In this document: positions 40-41,866 of the stretch, piece by piece | Position numbering within the stretch: position 1 is the stretch's first letter | Layout of the letters: each line of letters starts with the position of its first letter | DNA from: a virus | DNA length: 41,973 bases | Reading direction: 5' to 3' (one strand) | Virus record (IMG/VR): IMGVR_UViG_3300036846_000657 | Location: 1 to 41,973 of that record | Translations under genes and position numbers: made by a program | The notes under the pieces: model-generated | What the model was told of the DNA's origin: nothing | Database searches by the model: none | What the model saw: only the letters and a program-made list of their open reading frames with translations

Positions 40-146
40 TGGAGTAAGACGATGAGCGAGGGCTACACCCCGCCTGCCACGGTTGAAACTGAATCGCCGG
101 ATGCCGGCGACGACCTCGAAAACCCCGAAACCGAACGCGAGGAACA
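1..146. repeat. Left copy of terminal redundancy (circular overlap)
   Basis: Bases 1-146 match 41828-41973 except at one position (A at 122, C at 41949). The first 121 bases are identical. The overlap carries the end of the portal gene and the start of the scaffold gene in the same order, so the sequence closes into a circle of about 41,827 bp. This fits a circular or circularly permuted phage genome assembled with an overlap. It is too short and too arbitrarily placed within genes to be convincing as a physical terminal repeat. Confidence 0.93.
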
Positions 147-912
147 CGAGGACGAGGGCGACGATCCGCCTGAGCGAAAGCCGACCGATTGGGAGAAACA
201 GGCGCACGACAAGGCCGGTCAGGCGGCGAAAGAGCGCTCGAAACGCCGGGCGGCTGAACGCGCGCTGAGCGAGCTATCCGGCCGGTTCGAGGCGCTCGAA
301 CAGCGCATAGCCGGCGGCGGCCGGGATGATCTGGTGGATCTGATTTCCGGGCTCCGCGATGACGATGACGAGCCGATCACAGACATTCAGCAGATTAAGA
401 AGGCGCTGAAGACCTTCCTTGCGCGGGATGCGGCTGGCCAGGAACAGCAGCTCCGCCAGTCGCAGCAATCGCGCCGGGTCAACGATATCTCGAACAACAT
501 GGAAGCGTTCGAGACCGACTTCGCCGCCGATCATCCCGACTACATGCAGGCCGCCGCGCATCTGCGGCAGGCCCGGCAGGAGGAACTTGAAGACCTGGGC
601 TATTCCGGCAACGCCCTGATGAGCAAGCTCGCGAATGAGTTCTACGGGCTCGCCGAGGACGCCATGCGATCCGGCCGCGACCCGGCCGAGGTGGTCTATG
701 GGATGGCCAAGCGGCGCGGTTTCCAGGCCGGCAAGGAGTCCGCCAACGCCAAGCTTCAGAAGCTCCAGCGGGCCAACGGTTCGAGCCCGTCGCCGGGCGG
801 CGGCGCGTCGGCCGGGGCCGGGCGAAGCTGGGGGAGCGTGGCGAAGACGACCGGGAAAGAGTTCGACCGCGAATTCGCTGCGCTGCGCAAGCGCGAGCTT
901 GGCAAAAAGTAG
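52..912 (+). CDS. Putative capsid scaffolding protein
   Basis: 286 aa. It sits between the portal and the major capsid gene, where podoviruses encode the scaffold that shapes the procapsid and is then released. The N-terminal ~50 residues are very acidic and Pro/Glu rich. Residues ~50-100 and ~120-190 are charged, Gln/Arg/Glu-rich and likely helical or coiled-coil. The C-terminus is basic (ends RKRELGKK), as expected of a scaffold tail that docks on coat protein. It starts 12 bases after the portal stop with a GGAG-like RBS at 41-44. Codon 24 is Asn here and Thr in the right-hand copy. The function rests on position and composition, not on a recognised motif. Confidence 0.75.
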   Translation: MSEGYTPPATVETESPDAGDDLENPETEREEHEDEGDDPPERKPTDWEKQAHDKAGQAAKERSKRRAAERALSELSGRFEALEQRIAGGGRDDLVDLISGLRDDDDEPITDIQQIKKALKTFLARDAAGQEQQLRQSQQSRRVNDISNNMEAFETDFAADHPDYMQAAAHLRQARQEELEDLGYSGNALMSKLANEFYGLAEDAMRSGRDPAEVVYGMAKRRGFQAGKESANAKLQKLQRANGSSPSPGGGASAGAGRSWGSVAKTTGKEFDREFAALRKRELGKK

Positions 913-1085
913 CCGAGCCCCTAAGTTCAGCGGGTTCATGACGAGCATCCTGAACAGGTCCGCCGGGGCGAAGTCGCCTGCGCCTCAGTAAACCCCCCAC
1001 GGCGCGCTGTCGTGCTGGTCACAGGTTCCCGGCGGACCAATTCCTTTCTTGACAATCATCAGTAACACGCGCGTCGTTTTGACTT

Positions 1086-1198
1086 CGCGATTCGTCGCGT
1101 CTCGGCTGATCCACGGCACGGATCACGCGCTCCCTGAGCGCCCCGCCTAGCTCCACGGCACGGAGCGGACCCCCTGATCCTCTGATCGTGGACCGCTC
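1086..1198 (+). promoter_or_regulatory. Structured leader of the major capsid gene: five consecutive hairpins
   Basis: The 288 bases between the scaffold and capsid genes hold no convincing gene. The last 113 fold as a series of inverted repeats: 1086-1099 (CGCGA, loop TTCG, TCGCG), 1107-1125 (TGATCC/GGATCA, loop ACGGCAC), 1127-1141 (GCGCTC/GAGCGC), 1150-1166 (GCTCC/GGAGC, the same ACGGCAC loop) and 1163-1198 (GAGCGG-A-CC/GG-A-CCGCTC). The fourth and fifth share bases 1163-1166 and cannot form together. The fifth covers the ribosome-binding region and ends two bases before the capsid ATG. A TTGACA box lies at 1049-1054 without a good -10. A regulatory role is inferred. Confidence 0.6.
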
Positions 1199-1200
1199 AA

Positions 1201-2256
1201 ATGGCCGAAACTGCCTATGGCGTGAACGCACCTGAAGCCAAGAAGCTTTGGGCCGCCGCCCTCGCTCGCGAAGCCCTGAAAGCCACATGGATTCAGCGCT
1301 TCATCGGAGATTCCGCCGACTCCGTCTTGCAGACCTACACCGAAGCCAAAAAGGACGCGGGCGACCGGGTTCGGATCACGCTGCGTATGCAGTTGACCGG
1401 CGACGGTGTGTCAGGTGATGGCACGCTGGAGGGCAATGAAGAAGCCCTCGCGACCTACACCGACGACCTCTATATCGACCAACTTCGCCACGCGGTGAAG
1501 TCGGCCGGCAAGATGACCGAGCAACGTATCCCCTGGTCAATTCGTGAAGAGGCGATGCAGGGCTTGCGCGATTGGTGGGCGGGCCGCATGGACACGGCCT
1601 TTTTCACCCAAATGTGCGGCTACACTGTTCAGAACGACCCACGTTACTCGGGCCTGAACGCCGCCATCGCGCCCGACGCGGCGCACATTCTCCGTCCGAA
1701 CGCCAAGGCCAGCGATCAGCTACTCGCAGCCGGCGACGAGATGACCTTGCTCCAGATTGACGCAATGGTCGCCGCCGCCAAGCTGATGGTTCCGGTGATC
1801 CGGCCGATCAAGGTCAACGGCGATGACCGTTACGTCATGGTGGTTCACACGAACCAAGTGACGCAGCTCCGCACCGCGGCGGGGACCGGCCAATGGCTGG
1901 ATATCCAGAAGGCCGCGATGACCGGCGACGGGTCCAAGGACAACCCGATCATGACCGGCGCGCTGGGCATGTACAACGGCGTCGTTCTCCACGAGTCGAC
2001 GCGCATCACGCCTGGGGTGAACTCCGGGACCGGCGCGACCGTCGCCGGCTCGCGCCGCGCCGTGCTGATGGGCGCGCAGGCCGGGGCCATCGCCTTCGGC
2101 AAAGGTCAGTCGTTCGATAACTTCGACTGGAATGAGGAACTCTTCGACTACGGCAACAAGCTGGGCGTCGAAGCCGGCCTCATCCACGGCCTGAAGAAGC
2201 TCCGCTTTAACAACGCGGACTTCGGCACGCTCGTTCTCTCCACCTTTACCGTTTAG
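1201..2256 (+). CDS. Major capsid protein, N4-gp56-like family
   Basis: 351 aa forming the icosahedral shell. The N-terminal half (YTEAKKDAGDRV, LTGDGVSGDGTLEGNEE, IDQLRHAVKS) and the mid-section with paired Trp residues (GLRDWWAGRMD) match my knowledge of the N4-gp56-type major capsid family; length is normal for it. It follows the scaffold gene and precedes two capsid-associated genes in one plus-strand unit. The Shine-Dalgarno is weak (GTGGA at 1188-1192), surprising for the most abundant virion protein, and lies inside the leader stem at 1163-1198. No frame break is visible. Confidence 0.88.
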   Translation: MAETAYGVNAPEAKKLWAAALAREALKATWIQRFIGDSADSVLQTYTEAKKDAGDRVRITLRMQLTGDGVSGDGTLEGNEEALATYTDDLYIDQLRHAVKSAGKMTEQRIPWSIREEAMQGLRDWWAGRMDTAFFTQMCGYTVQNDPRYSGLNAAIAPDAAHILRPNAKASDQLLAAGDEMTLLQIDAMVAAAKLMVPVIRPIKVNGDDRYVMVVHTNQVTQLRTAAGTGQWLDIQKAAMTGDGSKDNPIMTGALGMYNGVVLHESTRITPGVNSGTGATVAGSRRAVLMGAQAGAIAFGKGQSFDNFDWNEELFDYGNKLGVEAGLIHGLKKLRFNNADFGTLVLSTFTV

Positions 2257-5946: not shown

Positions 5947-6569
5947 TGCCGTCTTATGACAAGCTCAGGGGGTTTGTCGGTCAGTCGCTTAGCGGCGTGA
6001 AAAGCGCTAAGCGCAGCTTTCCTTGGGGCGCGTCAGTTGGCGGCGCTGCGAATGTGCCGGGCTCGCTAATCGTGCCGTTCGGCGGCGTGCTTGATGCCTA
6101 CCTGTTCGCGGCGGGCGGCGCTTCCTCCACGACCGTTGCGGGCGGCGGCGGCGAGGCCGTTTACATTCTCGGATTTCCAGTTCCGGCGCTCTCGACAATC
6201 TCTTACGTGCTGGGCGGAGCGCCGGCAGGCGACGGCGGCCAGACGACGCTCAGCGTCAACGGTCAGCTTATTGCGGTGGCCAACGGCGGCCTGAGCAACG
6301 TGAACGGCGGCTTGGGCGGCAAGGGCGGCTACCCCAATTCCCGCCCCGGCGGGGCCGCCGGCCAGCCCGGCGTCAACGGCGGTGCGGCTGGCAATGGCGG
6401 CGGCTCTGGCGGCTTCCGCGACCTGTTCGGGAACACCTCTTGGCCGCTGGCTGGCGGGAACGGCGGGAGCGCCAATGCGGGGCAAGTACCTGGGGGCGGC
6501 GGCGGCGCTAGTGGCGGGTCGTGGCCGGGCGGCGGCGGGGGCCTCTGGTTCGTGCTGCGCGAGGTCTGA
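5946..6569 (+). CDS. Glycine-rich tail adhesin-like protein
   Basis: 207 aa from ATG 5946. Residues 1-60 start with a short helix then beta strands. From residue ~55 on, and most densely at 113-200, the chain is built of glycine runs (GGLGGKGG, GGAAGNGGGSGG, PGGGGGASGG, PGGGGG). This resembles the polyglycine-type receptor-binding tips of some phage fibres. The C-terminus closes with WFVLREV. It lies between small fibre genes and the tail-hub gene. I infer a host-contact role; low complexity limits certainty. Confidence 0.6.
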   Translation: MPSYDKLRGFVGQSLSGVKSAKRSFPWGASVGGAANVPGSLIVPFGGVLDAYLFAAGGASSTTVAGGGGEAVYILGFPVPALSTISYVLGGAPAGDGGQTTLSVNGQLIAVANGGLSNVNGGLGGKGGYPNSRPGGAAGQPGVNGGAAGNGGGSGGFRDLFGNTSWPLAGGNGGSANAGQVPGGGGGASGGSWPGGGGGLWFVLREV

Positions 6570-6571
6570 CG

Positions 6572-8083
6572 ATGAGCAACCTCGCCTTCACCCCGCCGCA
6601 GGGCCTCAACGGCGACGACACGGTTTTCAACGCGCCGGGCGCATGGCGGAACAGCTCACTCATGCGCTTCTGGCAGGGCTCGTGGGAATCGAAGGGCGGA
6701 TGGGAACGGCTGATGCTCGACAACCTGGGCGGCGTCTGCCGCTCGGTGGTCGGCTGGACGACGTTCGGCGACCTTCAGACGATAGGCTTCGGGCTGCATA
6801 ACGGACTGAAGGTCTGGCAGGGCTCGTTGCTCTACGACATTACGCCGACGACCGGCTTCACCGCCGGGCAGACGGACGGGACCGGCGGGGCTGGCTACGG
6901 GACCGGGGCCTATGGGATCGGCACGTTTGGCACGCCCTCGCTGACGGACTATTTCCCGCTGACCTGGGCGCTCGCGCCGTGGGGCGGAAACCTGATCGCC
7001 TGCCCCCGCGGCCAGAGCATTTTCGAGTGGGACGCGAACACCGCGCATCCGGCGGCGCTGATCGCGGGAGCGCCGGCCAAGGTCACGCACATGGTTGTCG
7101 TCCCGCAGCGGCAGGTTATGGCGCTGGGTTGCAACGAAGAAACAAGCGGGACCTTCAATCCGCTGTGCATCCGCTGGAGCGACATTGAAAACGAAACCGT
7201 GTGGACTTCGCTTCCCTCGAACAATGCCGGCGAATGGGTTCTGGAAACCGGCGGCCGGATCGTCTGCGGCCGGGTGATCGGGAACTATGTGCTGGTCTGG
7301 ACGACGGATAGCCTGTTCCTCGGGAGCTTCATCGGCGACGTTGGCCAGACGTGGAAGTTCGAGCGGGTCGGCGGCAACTGCGGCGCAATCTCGGCCGGCG
7401 CTCCGGTGGTCCGCGGGCAGAACGTCATGTGGATCGGCCCTGACCTGAGCTTTTGGAGCTACAGCCTCGGCGGGACCACGCAGCTCGTGCCGTGCCCGAT
7501 CAGCAGCATGTTCCAAGACTTCATGGCGCTCGGGCAGAATGACAAGATCGTCGGCTCGACCGTCGCGCAGTTTGGCGAGATGACGTGGTTCTATCCCGAC
7601 ACTCGTGACGGCCTGGAATGCTCGCGCGCCCTGACGGTCGGGCCGGAAGGCTGGAGCCGCGACTTCCTCGCCCGCTCCGCCTACTGCGATACCGGGCCGC
7701 AAGCCTTCCCGATTGGCGTCTCTCCAACCGGCTCGGCCTACTGGCATGAGAAGGGCAACTCGAACGACGGTGCGCCGCTGGTGGGCTTCATCGAGTCCGC
7801 GGCCTTCTACCTGGGCGAAAGTGACGCCGGGGTGATGGTCAACGGCCTGTGGCCCGACTTCAAGAGTCAGCAGGGCATAGTCAAGCTTACGCTCTACGGC
7901 CGGCAGTATCCGCAGGGCGCGGAGCGGGCGTTTGGTCCCTGGTCGCTACAGCCAAGCCAGTTGAGGCGTTCGTTTCGGATGAGTACGCGGATCGCCCGCG
8001 TGCGGTTCGACTTCAACTCCGCGCCGGCTTTTGTGCGTGGAGGCAGGCCAGAGTTCGATATCTCAAGCATTGGGGGTCGCTGA
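6572..8083 (+). CDS. Tail hub / packaged-DNA stabilisation protein, P22 gp10-like
   Basis: 503 aa from ATG 6572, two bases after the previous stop (TGA-CG-ATG); a longer in-frame extension would overlap the glycine-rich gene. The N-terminus (FTPPQGLNGDDTVFNAPG, then SLMRFWQGSWESKGGWE) and repeating Trp/Gly strands (VWTSLPSNNAGEW, GNYVLVWTTDSLFLG, MWIGPDLSFWSYS) are the beta-propeller-like pattern of podoviral tail hub proteins. In P22 this protein plugs the portal-adaptor channel and retains the DNA. The length is close to the family norm. Confidence 0.75.
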   Translation: MSNLAFTPPQGLNGDDTVFNAPGAWRNSSLMRFWQGSWESKGGWERLMLDNLGGVCRSVVGWTTFGDLQTIGFGLHNGLKVWQGSLLYDITPTTGFTAGQTDGTGGAGYGTGAYGIGTFGTPSLTDYFPLTWALAPWGGNLIACPRGQSIFEWDANTAHPAALIAGAPAKVTHMVVVPQRQVMALGCNEETSGTFNPLCIRWSDIENETVWTSLPSNNAGEWVLETGGRIVCGRVIGNYVLVWTTDSLFLGSFIGDVGQTWKFERVGGNCGAISAGAPVVRGQNVMWIGPDLSFWSYSLGGTTQLVPCPISSMFQDFMALGQNDKIVGSTVAQFGEMTWFYPDTRDGLECSRALTVGPEGWSRDFLARSAYCDTGPQAFPIGVSPTGSAYWHEKGNSNDGAPLVGFIESAAFYLGESDAGVMVNGLWPDFKSQQGIVKLTLYGRQYPQGAERAFGPWSLQPSQLRRSFRMSTRIARVRFDFNSAPAFVRGGRPEFDISSIGGR

Positions 8084-8270: not shown

Positions 8271-8717
8271 ATGAACGACCTACGCATAGACGCCTGGGAC
8301 GAAGCTGAAGACGCTGATACGTCCCCGCCGGTAAACGGGCACGTCGTGCCGGTTGACCCGGTGCATTCTCAATGGGCGCGGTTCCGCGATCAGTTCGCCG
8401 AAGCTATGCAAGACGGCTTCTGGACGGTCGAAGACCTAGAGGCGAAGATTCTTTCGCACCGCGCCTTCTTTTTCCCCGGCAAAAACTGTGCGTGCTGCGG
8501 CGAGATCGTGGAATATCCCGGCGGCGCGAAGGTGATGCAATTCACCTGGGCCGTGGGCGACATGAACGAGCTTGTCTCGATGGAGCCCGGAGTCGCCGCA
8601 ATCTGCCGAACGCTGGGCTGCAATGGAACCCTGATCGAGGGCCGCGCCGGCTGGCAGAAGGTGATGAAGCCGCTCGGCTACAAGCCGTTCTCGGTCACGC
8701 TTTACAGGCCGTTGTGA
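8271..8717 (+). CDS. GNAT-like / T7 gp13-like internal protein
   Basis: 148 aa. The C-terminal half has the pattern seen in phage GNAT-like proteins next to internal virion genes: KVMQFTWAVGDMNELVSM, then AICRTLGCNGTLIEGRAGW and LGYKPFSVTLYRPL. The GRAGW turn followed by 'GYK' is typical. An insertion near residue 68 carries CACCG. Position just before the internal virion proteins fits T7 gp13-like accessory proteins needed for virion maturation. Acetyltransferase activity is not established from the sequence. Confidence 0.5.
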   Translation: MNDLRIDAWDEAEDADTSPPVNGHVVPVDPVHSQWARFRDQFAEAMQDGFWTVEDLEAKILSHRAFFFPGKNCACCGEIVEYPGGAKVMQFTWAVGDMNELVSMEPGVAAICRTLGCNGTLIEGRAGWQKVMKPLGYKPFSVTLYRPL

Positions 8718-27348: not shown

Positions 27349-27819
27349 GTGGAAGACCGCCCGACCGCAGGCGGTGAGCTGATCGACTTTTTTAGCGCCG
27401 TGATCGAGCGGCGTGGGTCGAAATACACCACGGCGCTCGCGTCAGAAATCGTGACAACTTATCTCCTGTCCACAAAGTCTCTTCAGACACTTTGTGACGA
27501 AAAGGGCCATTGGCCGCACTACATCACAATCTTCAAGTGGCGCTTGTTGCACGCCGAGTTCGGTCAGGCGATGGAGCTTGCGCGCCAGATGCGCGGGGAT
27601 GCGCTGCTAGATCAGTGCATCGAGATCGCAGACGACACCTCGAACGACATAGTAGGCGGCGAGCCAAACCCGGTCGCGGTCGGTCGCTCAAAGGTTCGCA
27701 TCGAGACGCGAGTGAAGTGGGTGCAACTCGTCTGCCCGGAGAAGTACGGCCAACGCTCCGAAGGCTACCGGCCGCCGGGTTATCTGCCGCAAGAGGAAGC
27801 AATTAGACTTCTAAAGTGA
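27349..27819 (+). CDS. terS: Terminase small subunit
   Basis: 156 aa, GTG start with AGGGGAG just upstream. The N-terminal half has an HTH-like region (TTYLLSTKSLQTLCDEKGHW, then ITIFKWRLLHAEFGQAMELA) typical of terS-like DNA recognition. The middle helix (MRGDALLDQCIEIADDTSND) and the strand VRIETRVKWVQLVCPEKYG match TerS-like proteins of podoviruses. It binds the pac site and regulates the large subunit encoded five bases later. An 8-bp inverted repeat within the gene (27471-27496) is a possible pac element. Confidence 0.75.
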   Translation: MEDRPTAGGELIDFFSAVIERRGSKYTTALASEIVTTYLLSTKSLQTLCDEKGHWPHYITIFKWRLLHAEFGQAMELARQMRGDALLDQCIEIADDTSNDIVGGEPNPVAVGRSKVRIETRVKWVQLVCPEKYGQRSEGYRPPGYLPQEEAIRLLK

Positions 27820-27823
27820 AGCC

Positions 27824-29413
27824 ATGCCCTACGCAGCCGGGCGGACATACTATCCGCCTGAAAAGGTGCAGCAACGCCAGACGTGGAAAGACAGCTTCGA
27901 GTCTTTCGCCGCTGATTGCCTGATCGTCAAAACCAAGGCCGGCGCACTAGAGCATCTGAAGCTGAATTCGGCGCAGCAGTTCATTCATCAGAAACTTGAG
28001 GAACAGCTCAAGCGGACTGGAAAGGTTCGCGCGTTGATCCTGAAGGCGCGTCAGCAGGGCGTGAGTACATATGTGGGGGCCAGGTTCTATCATCGCACGC
28101 AGTTTTTTCAGGGAACCAGCGTCTTCATCCTGACGCAGGAGCAAGCGGCGACAGATACACTGTTCTCGATGGTCGATCGGTTCCACCGATACATGACGCC
28201 GGAATTCCGCCTGCCGACAGGGGCCTCGAACGCGAAAGAGCTGACCTTTCCCGCGGCGGATAGCGGCTACAGCGTCGGCACGGCAGGGACGCGCGCGGTC
28301 GGCCGGTCGAAGACGATCCAATGTTTTCACGGAAGCGAGGTCGGGTTCTGGCCGAGCGCGCCAGAGCATTTCGCCGGTATCGTCCAGGCGTTGCCAGACC
28401 TTCCGGGCACGGAAGCAATCTTAGAGTCCACAGCCAACGGTATTGGCGGCGAGTTCCACGAAAGGTGGCAGCAGAGCGAGCGCGGGGAAGGCGACTGGAT
28501 ACCGATTTTTGTTCCCTGGTATTGGTCGGACGAATATGAGCGCGAGCCGCCGCCCGATTTCGTGCTGACGGACGAAGAGTTGCAGCTTGCGTCCTACTAC
28601 AGCCTGACGCCGCGGAAGCTGGCGTGGCGACGCTATAAGCTCAGCGAGCTGAAGGACCCGGCGCTGTTCGCGCAGGAATACCCGGCGACCGCGGCCGAAG
28701 CCTTCCAAGCGACTGGCCATGACTCGTTCATTCTGAGCCGGCATGTGATGGCGGCGCGCAAGGCGAGCTGCGAGGCGGTGGGCTCGCTCGTGATGGGCGT
28801 GGACCCCGCCCGGTTCGGAGACGACTCGTTCGCCATCGCTCACAGGCGCGGGCGCGTGGTCTCGTCAGTCAAGCGCCGGTATCGGCTGAACACGGTCGAA
28901 GGCGCGAATTGGGTCAAGTCGGAGATCGACCAGCATCAGCCGCGCGCGGTGTTCATCGACGTTGGCAACATGGGCGCAGGCGTCATCGACATACTGCGCG
29001 ACTTCGGCCCGCCCTACAGTGACGTTGTGGTCTCGGTGAACTTCGGCGGTGCGCCGCAGGATCAGCAGAGAACCGACGCGAGCGGCCAGCTTGTCCCCGG
29101 CCCGAAGAATAGACGCGCTGAAATGTGGATGCGCTCGAAAGACTGGCTTGAGGATGAGGGCGGCGCAGACATACCCGACGACGACGCTTTGCACGCCGAC
29201 GCTGTAGCGCCCGGATACCGCTACGACATGCGCCAATACCTCTTGCTCGAAAGCAAAGAAGACATTCGCAAGCGCGGGCTGCGCTCGCCTGACGGATGGG
29301 ACGCCGTAGCCCTGACCTTCGCTGCGCCGGTTAGCGCGCTGGCCAACGCCGCGGACAGTGACCGGGAGTGGCGAGGCCGCAAGCGCGGCGGAACCACGCC
29401 TTGGGGTCGATAG
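27824..29413 (+). CDS. terL: Terminase large subunit
   Basis: 529 aa. ATPase: deviant Walker A KARQQGVST (residues 74-82), Walker B-like IQCFHGSEVGF (E172) and coupling motif ESTAN (201-205). Nuclease (RNase H-like): D327 in MGVDPARFGDD, D379 in AVFIDVGNMGAG, and a late acidic site in GWDAVALTFA. It pumps DNA into the procapsid through the portal and cuts the concatemer. The length is normal. It follows TerS directly, but both are far from the portal gene and on the early plus-strand unit, an unusual separation of packaging and head genes. Confidence 0.9.
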   Translation: MPYAAGRTYYPPEKVQQRQTWKDSFESFAADCLIVKTKAGALEHLKLNSAQQFIHQKLEEQLKRTGKVRALILKARQQGVSTYVGARFYHRTQFFQGTSVFILTQEQAATDTLFSMVDRFHRYMTPEFRLPTGASNAKELTFPAADSGYSVGTAGTRAVGRSKTIQCFHGSEVGFWPSAPEHFAGIVQALPDLPGTEAILESTANGIGGEFHERWQQSERGEGDWIPIFVPWYWSDEYEREPPPDFVLTDEELQLASYYSLTPRKLAWRRYKLSELKDPALFAQEYPATAAEAFQATGHDSFILSRHVMAARKASCEAVGSLVMGVDPARFGDDSFAIAHRRGRVVSSVKRRYRLNTVEGANWVKSEIDQHQPRAVFIDVGNMGAGVIDILRDFGPPYSDVVVSVNFGGAPQDQQRTDASGQLVPGPKNRRAEMWMRSKDWLEDEGGADIPDDDALHADAVAPGYRYDMRQYLLLESKEDIRKRGLRSPDGWDAVALTFAAPVSALANAADSDREWRGRKRGGTTPWGR

Positions 29414-39591: not shown

Positions 39592-39782
39592 AGCAGATGC
39601 GCGACCCGGCGAAATGGGCCGCCGGCCGGCAGCGGGCTTACGAGCGCCAGCGCCGCGCATGGCGTCGCGATCATCCGCTGAAGTCGGTCGCCGCCATCGC
39701 CGCCGAAGAGATGACCGCCGAGGAACTGCGTCGCCAAAGCGCCGTCACGTTTGAAAAGCTGGCGCGGGAGAACTCATCGTGA
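39588..39782 (+). CDS. Small basic helical protein before the portal gene
   Basis: 64 aa. Strongly basic start (MKQMRDPAKWAAGRQRAYER, RQRRAWRRD) then helices (VAAIAAEEMTAEELRRQSAV). Its stop overlaps the portal GTG (GTGA). It may bind nucleic acid or the packaging machinery; no evidence beyond charge and place. Confidence 0.55.
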   Translation: MKQMRDPAKWAAGRQRAYERQRRAWRRDHPLKSVAAIAAEEMTAEELRRQSAVTFEKLARENSS

Positions 39783-41866
39783 GCGAACCCCGCGGCCCGC
39801 AATTCGACGCGCAGAAAACCCCCGCTGAGCAACAGGCCGAAAGCGACTCCGCCCTCCTGACCAAGTTCGCCGCCTGGGACAAGCTGCTAGAGGCGAAGTG
39901 GTCAACCTGGGTTGAGGAAGCCAAGCAATCCTATGATTTCGTCGCCGGCCATCAGTGGGACCCGGCAGACAAGGCCACTCTCGAAGAAAATAACAAGCTC
40001 CCGGTAGTGTTCAACATCACGGCTCCGACCCTGGACGCAGTAGCGGGCGCGGAAATACAGAACCGGCAACAGGTTATGTATTACCCCCGCGAGGTTGGTG
40101 ATCAGGGCGTCTCTGATGTACTGACGCAGGGCGCCGATTACATCAACGATGAGTGCAACGGCGACCAAGAAGACTCCGAAGCCTTCTATGATTGCCTGGT
40201 ATGCGGGATCGGCTGGACCGGCTCGCAACCCGAGATCGACGGCTCCGACGTGGCGCTGATCAAGGAACGGGTAGACCCGCTCCAGATCAAGGCCGACGCC
40301 TCCAGCCGCAAGCCGAATTTCGAGGACAAACGCTACCTCAAGCGCGAAATCCCCATGAGCCGGGAGGCGTTCGAGGAATACGCCGCCGAGCTTGGCCAGC
40401 CCGACGCCTCGCCCGAGGGCATGAACGCCGCCGACGATGAAGGGAAGCGGCTGACAATCGTGAATCCGCAGACCCGCTACACGAGCGGGATGCTGGGGAA
40501 CGGCGCTGGCACGGAAGAGGTGATCGTCTGCGAGTGGCAATGGTTCGAGCGCGAGCCGATCTATCTCGCGCCGCTCCCGAGCCCGGAAGACCCGAACGTC
40601 ATCAAAATCGGCAAGCTGCGGCCGGAAGAATTCGCGCAGGCGAAGGCGCTGAATCCGCAGATTCCGTCAACGCGCAGCTACGAAAAGGTCTTTTACCGCG
40701 CCCTGGTCGCCAACGATCAGATTCTGTTCACCGAACAGATGCCGGAAGGGTGCTTCCGCTATCACGCGATCACTGGCAAGCGCGACCGTAACAAAGGAAC
40801 GTGGTTCGGGCTCGTGCGGCCGATGCTCGACCCGCAGAAGTTCACGAATAAGCTCTACAGTGAGATTCTGCACATCGTCAGGACGAACGCCAACGGCGGC
40901 CTGACGATGGAAGAGGATGCGGTCGCCGATATTCGCAAGTTCGAGCAGACCTACGCCGCCGCCGACAAAATCACTTGGGTCAAGCCCGGCAGCCTGAGCA
41001 ATGCTCAAGGCCCGAAGATGCAGCCCAAGACGCCGACGCCGATCAACCCGGCGCTTTTCCAGATGATGGAATTCGCGCGGGACATGGTGAAGGCTTGCAC
41101 AGGCGTCAATGAAGAGATTCTCGGCATTGCCGGGCGCGAACAGCCCGGAGTCTTGGAAGCGCAGCGAAAACAGGCCGCCTACGGCATTCTGAGCGCATTT
41201 TTTGACGCCAAACGGCGCTATCAGCGCGATCAAGGCCGCTGTTTACTCGCCCAAATGCGAATTTTCCTCCCCGACGACAAGCTCGTGCGGATCGTGGACA
41301 AGGGAACGGCGCAATACGTCACGCTGGCGATGACGATGGATGCGCAGCAGTACGATATCGTCGTGGACGACGCGCCGGCCGGGCCGAACCAGAAGGCCAA
41401 GGTGGTGCAAGTTCTCCTGCCGCTCCTGCCCGAGCTTTTCCAGGCTCAGGTGATCGGGCCGGAAGAGATCGCCATGATCATCCCCTATCTCGACCTCCCG
41501 GCCGCGGTCGCGACCAAGCTCAGCGCCGCGATCCAAAAGAAGGCCGACGCCGCGTCGCAGCCGAACCCGGCGCAGCAGCTCGAACAGGCGCAGGGGCAGG
41601 CCGAGCTTCAGAACACGCAGGCCGACACGCAGGCGAAGTCCGCCAAGGCGACGAAGGACATGGCCACGGCGCAGAACGAGGGCGCGCGGGTCAACGTCGA
41701 AGCCTTCAAGGCCGCCTCCGACGTGGCCGCAGCTCGCGCCAGCAGCGGCCAGCCGCCGCACTGGCAGAAAGCCCCGGCGGCGGTGTGGAAGCCTGCCGGA
41801 TCAGAAGCCGAGGGGGCGGCCGAACCGCCCGAGCCGGGTGAGGGCGGACCCGAAGACATGGTGTGA
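39779..41866 (+). CDS. Portal protein, P22-like
   Basis: 695 aa, GTG start coupled to the previous stop. Characteristic stretches: SYDFVAGHQWDPADK, NNKLPVVFNITAPTLDAVAG, EIQNRQQVMYYPR, CDDD-free DCLVCGIGWTG, RSYEKVFYRALVAND and GVNEEILGIAGREQPG, all in the order of P22-like portals. Residues ~590-660 are a Gln/Ala-rich helix (the barrel or crown region). The C-terminus is disordered and acidic. It forms the dodecameric ring through which the terminase pumps DNA. It runs through the right end into 1-39. Confidence 0.88.
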   Translation: MSEPRGPQFDAQKTPAEQQAESDSALLTKFAAWDKLLEAKWSTWVEEAKQSYDFVAGHQWDPADKATLEENNKLPVVFNITAPTLDAVAGAEIQNRQQVMYYPREVGDQGVSDVLTQGADYINDECNGDQEDSEAFYDCLVCGIGWTGSQPEIDGSDVALIKERVDPLQIKADASSRKPNFEDKRYLKREIPMSREAFEEYAAELGQPDASPEGMNAADDEGKRLTIVNPQTRYTSGMLGNGAGTEEVIVCEWQWFEREPIYLAPLPSPEDPNVIKIGKLRPEEFAQAKALNPQIPSTRSYEKVFYRALVANDQILFTEQMPEGCFRYHAITGKRDRNKGTWFGLVRPMLDPQKFTNKLYSEILHIVRTNANGGLTMEEDAVADIRKFEQTYAAADKITWVKPGSLSNAQGPKMQPKTPTPINPALFQMMEFARDMVKACTGVNEEILGIAGREQPGVLEAQRKQAAYGILSAFFDAKRRYQRDQGRCLLAQMRIFLPDDKLVRIVDKGTAQYVTLAMTMDAQQYDIVVDDAPAGPNQKAKVVQVLLPLLPELFQAQVIGPEEIAMIIPYLDLPAAVATKLSAAIQKKADAASQPNPAQQLEQAQGQAELQNTQADTQAKSAKATKDMATAQNEGARVNVEAFKAASDVAAARASSGQPPHWQKAPAAVWKPAGSEAEGAAEPPEPGEGGPEDMV

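Follow-up and report, generated by a model that had tools for sequence, protein, structure and literature searches.

Conserved, covarying hairpins in the leader of a phage major capsid gene: a probable translational operator

The 288 nt that separate a scaffold-like gene from the major capsid gene in a virus record of 41,973 bases (the whole stretch of DNA analysed, hereafter the window) house five hairpin stems, which raises the question of how this leader affects the gene behind it. Few phage proteins are made in larger amounts than the major capsid protein, whose ratio to the scaffold needs control. The initial annotation had described the five stems, and a direct reading of the sequence confirmed every one of them (Table 1). 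The window also encodes a P22-type portal (39779-41866) and a terminase (27349-29413). The scaffold-like protein had no match in family searches; its gene has a homologue in all 8 relative genomes compared. Taken alone, the sequence of the leader says little: the fold of positions 1060-1215 has a z-score of -1.96, which is modest evidence from a single sequence, the folding z-scores are alike on both strands and the window contains ACGGCAC, the loop of two of the hairpins, 7 times, close to the 7.6 expected and so without over-representation. Comparison with related phages reveals a conserved, covarying, structured leader associated with the capsid gene. We give a probability of roughly 0.6 to the reading that its approximately 100 nt between positions 1102 and 1200 are a conserved translational operator, in which a ligand-held hairpin competes with the sequestration of the Shine-Dalgarno region. 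The leader has the makings of an operator, since its structured RNA is conserved and lies where ribosomes bind the gene presumed to be regulated; that a protein binds it and acts on translation is what we infer from this. Since the ribosome-binding site can be hidden, the leader probably sets the amount of shell protein that is made.

Table 1 Features of the capsid leader and its flanking genes, in window coordinates
Feature	Position	Strand	Remark
Scaffold-like gene	52..912	+	Inferred from its place between portal and capsid; candidate partner
TTGACA box	1049..1054	+	May be the -35 of a promoter for the capsid operon; lacks a convincing -10
H1 hairpin CGCGA-UUCG-UCGCG	1086..1099	+	Near the presumed transcript 5' end; read from sequence
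UCGGC	1102..1106	+	UCG-NN kept just 5' of HA
HA hairpin UGAUCC-(ACGGCAC)-GGAUCA	1107..1125	+	Loop consensus NCGNNA(A/C); covariation, model R1
M hairpin GCGCUC-CCU-GAGCGC	1127..1141	+	Variable stem between HA and HB
HB hairpin GCUCC-(ACGGCAC)-GGAGC	1150..1166	+	5' arm CUCC is anti-Shine-Dalgarno
CUCCACG (HB 5' arm and loop)	1151..1157	+	Able to pair with CGUGGA 1187-1192; excludes HB
Fifth stem GAGCGGACC/GGACCGCUC	1163..1198 (arms 1163-1171/1190-1198)	+	Buries the Shine-Dalgarno region
CGUGGA	1187..1192	+	Shine-Dalgarno region of the capsid gene
Major capsid protein gene	1201..2256	+	PF13252, PHROG 334; presumed regulated gene

The comparison covered the leaders of 80 viral contigs and of a single bacterial bin, all of which code for capsid relatives (55-89% identical). 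Many of these relatives share the same layout, made up of HA, a variable hairpin M, HB, the Shine-Dalgarno region and the start codon. Under a fixed hairpin rule (CG at loop positions 2-3, A two or three bases on, a stem of at least 4), HA-type and HB-type hairpins occur together in 32 of 68 distinct leaders, as against 1.1% of shuffled leaders and a background of 1.0% elsewhere in the same contigs. The occurrence of the same ACGGCAC loop on two different stems, to which the initial annotation had drawn attention, is part of this conserved feature, which about 1% of leaders would have by chance. The loops found were ACGGCAC, ACGGGAC, ACGUCAC, ACGAUAC, ACGACAC, ACGGAC, CCGGUAA(C), GCGUCAA and GCGGUAA, a range that leaves CG and the following A as the constant letters. 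A UCG lies a few bases 5' of the HA stem and, in many relatives, also before HB, which suggests that the module was duplicated. The M stem varies in sequence among relatives while its hairpin is maintained, and hairpins of differing sequence may also be read at the position of H1 in several close relatives. The second UGAUCC at 1175-1180, proposed as a further pairing partner, is present in the window and was not seen in the leaders of relatives.

Searches for known RNA families were negative: with Rfam 15, no family reached its gathering threshold in the window, where relaxed settings gave only insignificant leader matches, none matched at the leaders of nine relatives, and the covariance model of the TwoAYGGAY RNA (RF01731) had no match in the window or its relatives. 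Among 21 more distant leaders, 3 contain a fitting hairpin, 0.9 being expected. In the leader of Rhizobium phage RHph_Y1_10 (L083, capsid 48% identical), a 9-bp stem carries a loop, GCGUCA, that fits the HA rule and lies about 103 nt before the capsid gene; being in culture, this phage would allow a test of the element. HNH endonuclease genes directly precede the capsid gene in the same phage (L083, 798-1373) and in Paracoccus phage KLEP18-1 (L084, 633-1211).

The stems themselves have changed in a coordinated manner. In an alignment of 18 HA hairpins (A3), 92.6% of the cells are paired and 23 are double-change cells, compared with 6.6 after shuffling (0 of 500 shuffles reached the observed value), and pairing falls to 22-45% when the arms are slid by one to three columns. 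The compensated variation that had been suspected from the two stems of the window is seen in HA. When changes were counted on a tree of capsid proteins with 40 rows, HA pair 4 underwent at least 14 (13 and 14 on its two sides) and pair 3 at least 12 (11 and 10); both sides change nearly equally often, and the changes of these HA pairs are numerous and coordinated. Pairing of HA and HB was lost when arms were exchanged between loci, a test that is inflated by the choice of HA and HB rows partly for their ability to pair, as the A3 counts are to a lesser extent. The initial annotation had named a lack of conserved pairing in related phages as a refutation of its claim; such pairing is present, and the claim was not refuted on this count.

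A covariance model (R1), made from the window plus 12 close relatives, was used to search 401,554 bases. Its eight matches with E<0.005 (L037, L038, L043, L058, L059, L081, L032 and L069, with capsids 63-73% identical) are all capsid leaders on the sense strand, and the weaker ones, to E 1.4, likewise fall on capsid leaders. One copy of the element, at the capsid gene, was found in the window and in the other whole genomes fetched, except in phage G010. Searched over 274 bacterial genomes, R1 had no match, even in the genome that holds L081, so that this negative result carries no information. The HA consensus pattern, scanned over all viral contigs, returned four of them: L038, the capsid leaders L126 and L128 from a group of phages with just 42% capsid identity, and a contig of unrelated context explicable by chance. 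A match on a Sulfitobacter plasmid was rejected, as it is at chance level and away from phage genes. Recurrence, covariation and the location of the R1 matches together uphold the earlier proposal of a conserved cis-acting RNA element of the capsid gene.

Mutually exclusive pairings at the ribosome-binding site had also been proposed, with the fifth stem as the one that hides it. The pairings do reach this site, but the swap test supports a different partner. The 5' arm of HB reads CUCC or similar (CCGCC in another clade) and is complementary to the Shine-Dalgarno region. For 22 dereplicated leaders, the HB 5' arm and loop were paired with the 24 nt immediately 5' of the start codon; the duplex energy was -13.5 kcal/mol for native combinations and -11.3 kcal/mol for swaps between phages (p=5e-5), whereas the 1163-1198 stem gave p=0.19, which is not significant. 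Sliding the segment along the leader produced the best signal at HB (z=-4.9); other positions show weaker signals (z to -2.6), so composition contributes to the result of the swap test. Complementary examples include GGCUCCA/UGGAGCC in L065 and L069, GGCCUCCA/UGGAGGCC in L063 and GAAUGUC/GACAUUC in L032. Most close relatives have GCGG/CCGC at the ends of the 1163-1198 stem, and in the window HB is compatible with most of this stem, which likewise hides the Shine-Dalgarno region. These sequence comparisons support the pairing of the HB 5' arm and loop with the Shine-Dalgarno region, and not mainly the 1163-1198 stem, as the alternative preserved by evolution. In folding predictions of the free RNA, HB has a mean probability of 0.12, because longer-range pairing wins; a hairpin that is conserved and yet outcompeted in prediction would correspond to the pattern of a ligand-held hairpin. 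Constrained folding that favoured HB raised the predicted accessibility of the Shine-Dalgarno region in 8 of 38 cases and lowered it in 8 of 38, with no consistent direction.

The following mechanism may be proposed. The leader would carry two copies of one binding module, HA and HB, spaced by the variable hairpin, and each module would consist of UCG-NN followed by a hairpin of 5-6 bp with a loop of 7-8 nt, NCGNNA(A/C). In the free RNA, CUCCACG of HB would close the capsid gene by pairing with the Shine-Dalgarno region. A protein that holds HA and HB as hairpins would leave the Shine-Dalgarno region freed or differently occluded, and the changed occlusion would alter capsid output, for instance relative to the scaffold. 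A more far-reaching version, in which these leaders form a new RNA family of tailed DNA phages, a virion protein binds the two UCG-hairpin modules, the second module competes with the anti-Shine-Dalgarno pairing and the state of head assembly sets capsid synthesis, is offered tentatively and is rather doubtful as a whole.

The location of the element allows other explanations. A TTGAC box lies 5' of HA in 30 of 37 leaders, mostly at a distance of 42-73 nt, which would suit an element of transcription or stability near the 5' end of a late transcript (put- or boxB-like antitermination, 5' protection or an RNase site), the Shine-Dalgarno pairing being secondary. The same could be said of a second copy found in one subclade (L123:10582-10640(-), from phage G010, and L125:6369-6458), where a protein of 504 aa, encoded in the structural block, has in front of its gene a TTGACATCCGTAAACGAACC box, an HA hairpin and, overlapping the Shine-Dalgarno region, a short hairpin like HB (CCUGC-GCGCGACA-GCAGG). 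The two second copies are identical in sequence, and the 504-aa protein resembles the virion protein encoded at 6521-8083 of the window by its place and its R1 match. Nevertheless, seven of the 37 leaders (L049, L058, L061 and L063-L066) are devoid of the box, and in these HA comes after the scaffold gene ends, which suggests that the element keeps to the capsid start and not to a promoter. The maintained complementarity between HB and the Shine-Dalgarno region also speaks against a role in transcription or stability, which we regard as unlikely. A consensus promoter scan found no promoter. Paracoccus phage KLEP18-1 has a good sigma-70 match (TTGACA-17-CATAAT) about 140 nt upstream of its capsid gene. 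The second copy does qualify the attribution of the element to the capsid gene: it is present at capsid leaders as proposed, but its specificity for capsid is not strict, one subclade having a copy in front of a different virion gene. It is highly improbable that the element acts as DNA (a single-strand hairpin promoter, an origin or a recombination site). Inverted repeats can also serve in DNA and, as seen above, the z-scores do not distinguish the strands; yet G-U exceeds A-C 10:1 at the inner stem pairs, which favours RNA of the sense strand, the orientation and position are fixed relative to the capsid start codon, the complementarity concerns the Shine-Dalgarno region and none of the listed ORFs reaches the size needed for a giant virion RNA polymerase.

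If the leader is a translational operator, candidates for its ligand can be sought in the gene content of the phages. The genes present in at least 7 of 8 other element-bearing genomes all belong to the head/tail/packaging block, several of them without known function, and no obvious small regulator is found among those common to 7 or 8 of the 8. A binder that is encoded by the phage and common to all would be among these shared genes, and otherwise it would be a host factor; a virion protein or a host factor is the likeliest ligand. Positions 8271-8717 of the window encode a conserved 148-aa protein of unknown function with cysteine pairs (PHROG 7642), which each of the 8 relative genomes in the comparison also has. 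The operator reading can be sharpened to an autogenous one, the kind at which the initial annotation had hinted: the capsid or scaffold protein itself would bind both hairpins and repress or license capsid translation, as in the coat operator of RNA phages. The composition of the shared block, the place of the element between scaffold and capsid and its second copy before a virion gene agree with this possibility. However, neither the capsid nor the scaffold protein displayed an RNA-binding feature, several of the shared proteins of unknown function could equally bind and a host factor accounts for the same data, so that we hold autogenous control to be possible, on balance doubtful. CsrA-family proteins, of host or phage, offer a more specific and quite improbable candidate for binding the loops. 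In more distant carriers of this capsid family, Bcep22-like and related phages, the capsid gene is immediately preceded by a CsrA-like gene scored with PF02599 (among cultured phages, Burkholderia DC1, Klebsiella ZX1, Pseudomonas Itty13 and Erwinia Pavtok), and L066 has two C(ACGGAC)G hexaloops that fit the ANGGAN pattern of CsrA sites. Yet PF02599 matched nothing in the window or its near relatives, a phage-CsrA profile was negative on the window and the loci, GGA is absent from the ACGGCAC loop of the window and present in a minority of relatives, and the HA/HB element is missing from the capsid leaders of the CsrA-encoding phages.

We retain the CsrA-like genes as a lead and not as the explanation. 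They are found between scaffold and capsid in L090, L091, L092, L097 and L096, and the capsid leaders of several phages that carry them contain a motif, GCGCAWGACGUGC, that can pair with the segment before the Shine-Dalgarno region and is possibly another capsid-leader RNA. In phage JC1 the CsrA-like gene has been termed a moron gene (PMC9144972), and knock-down of the csrA homologue of phage PTXU04 resulted in smaller plaques (PMC11879866).

A compact, strongly conserved leader with candidate binding sites makes the control of capsid synthesis a directly testable question, and it may yield a new RNA-protein operator pair. Searches of the open-licence literature yielded no description of this leader, nor of control at the RNA level in this capsid gene family. 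Comparable systems can be found elsewhere. T4 gp32 and RegA repress translation (reviewed in PMC3014915); the likeness lies in phage translation being controlled through mRNA leaders, the sequences being unrelated and the target genes different. With CsrA/RsmA sites the leader shares tandem hairpins near the Shine-Dalgarno region and a C-G closing pair, as well as the ANGGAN fit of the L066 loops, whereas most of its loops are without GGA and its genomes without a detected CsrA gene. The TwoAYGGAY RNA motif is made up of two hairpins with A-Y-G-G-A-Y loops. By its name and description it resembles the present leader in having two hairpins, and the L066 loops fit; here, however, the loops mostly read NCGNNA(A/C), have 7-8 nt and escape its covariance model. 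The coat operators of RNA phages (MS2/R17, PP7) are short hairpins with a sequence-specific loop near a ribosome-binding site. By analogy, the leader described here, also with short loop-specific hairpins near a phage ribosome-binding site, would be subject to the same kind of translational control by a structural protein. Unlike those operators, it belongs to tailed DNA phages, has two hairpin copies with another loop and lies before the capsid gene itself, and its putative ligand would act on a hairpin whose own 5' arm serves as the anti-Shine-Dalgarno in the alternative pairing.
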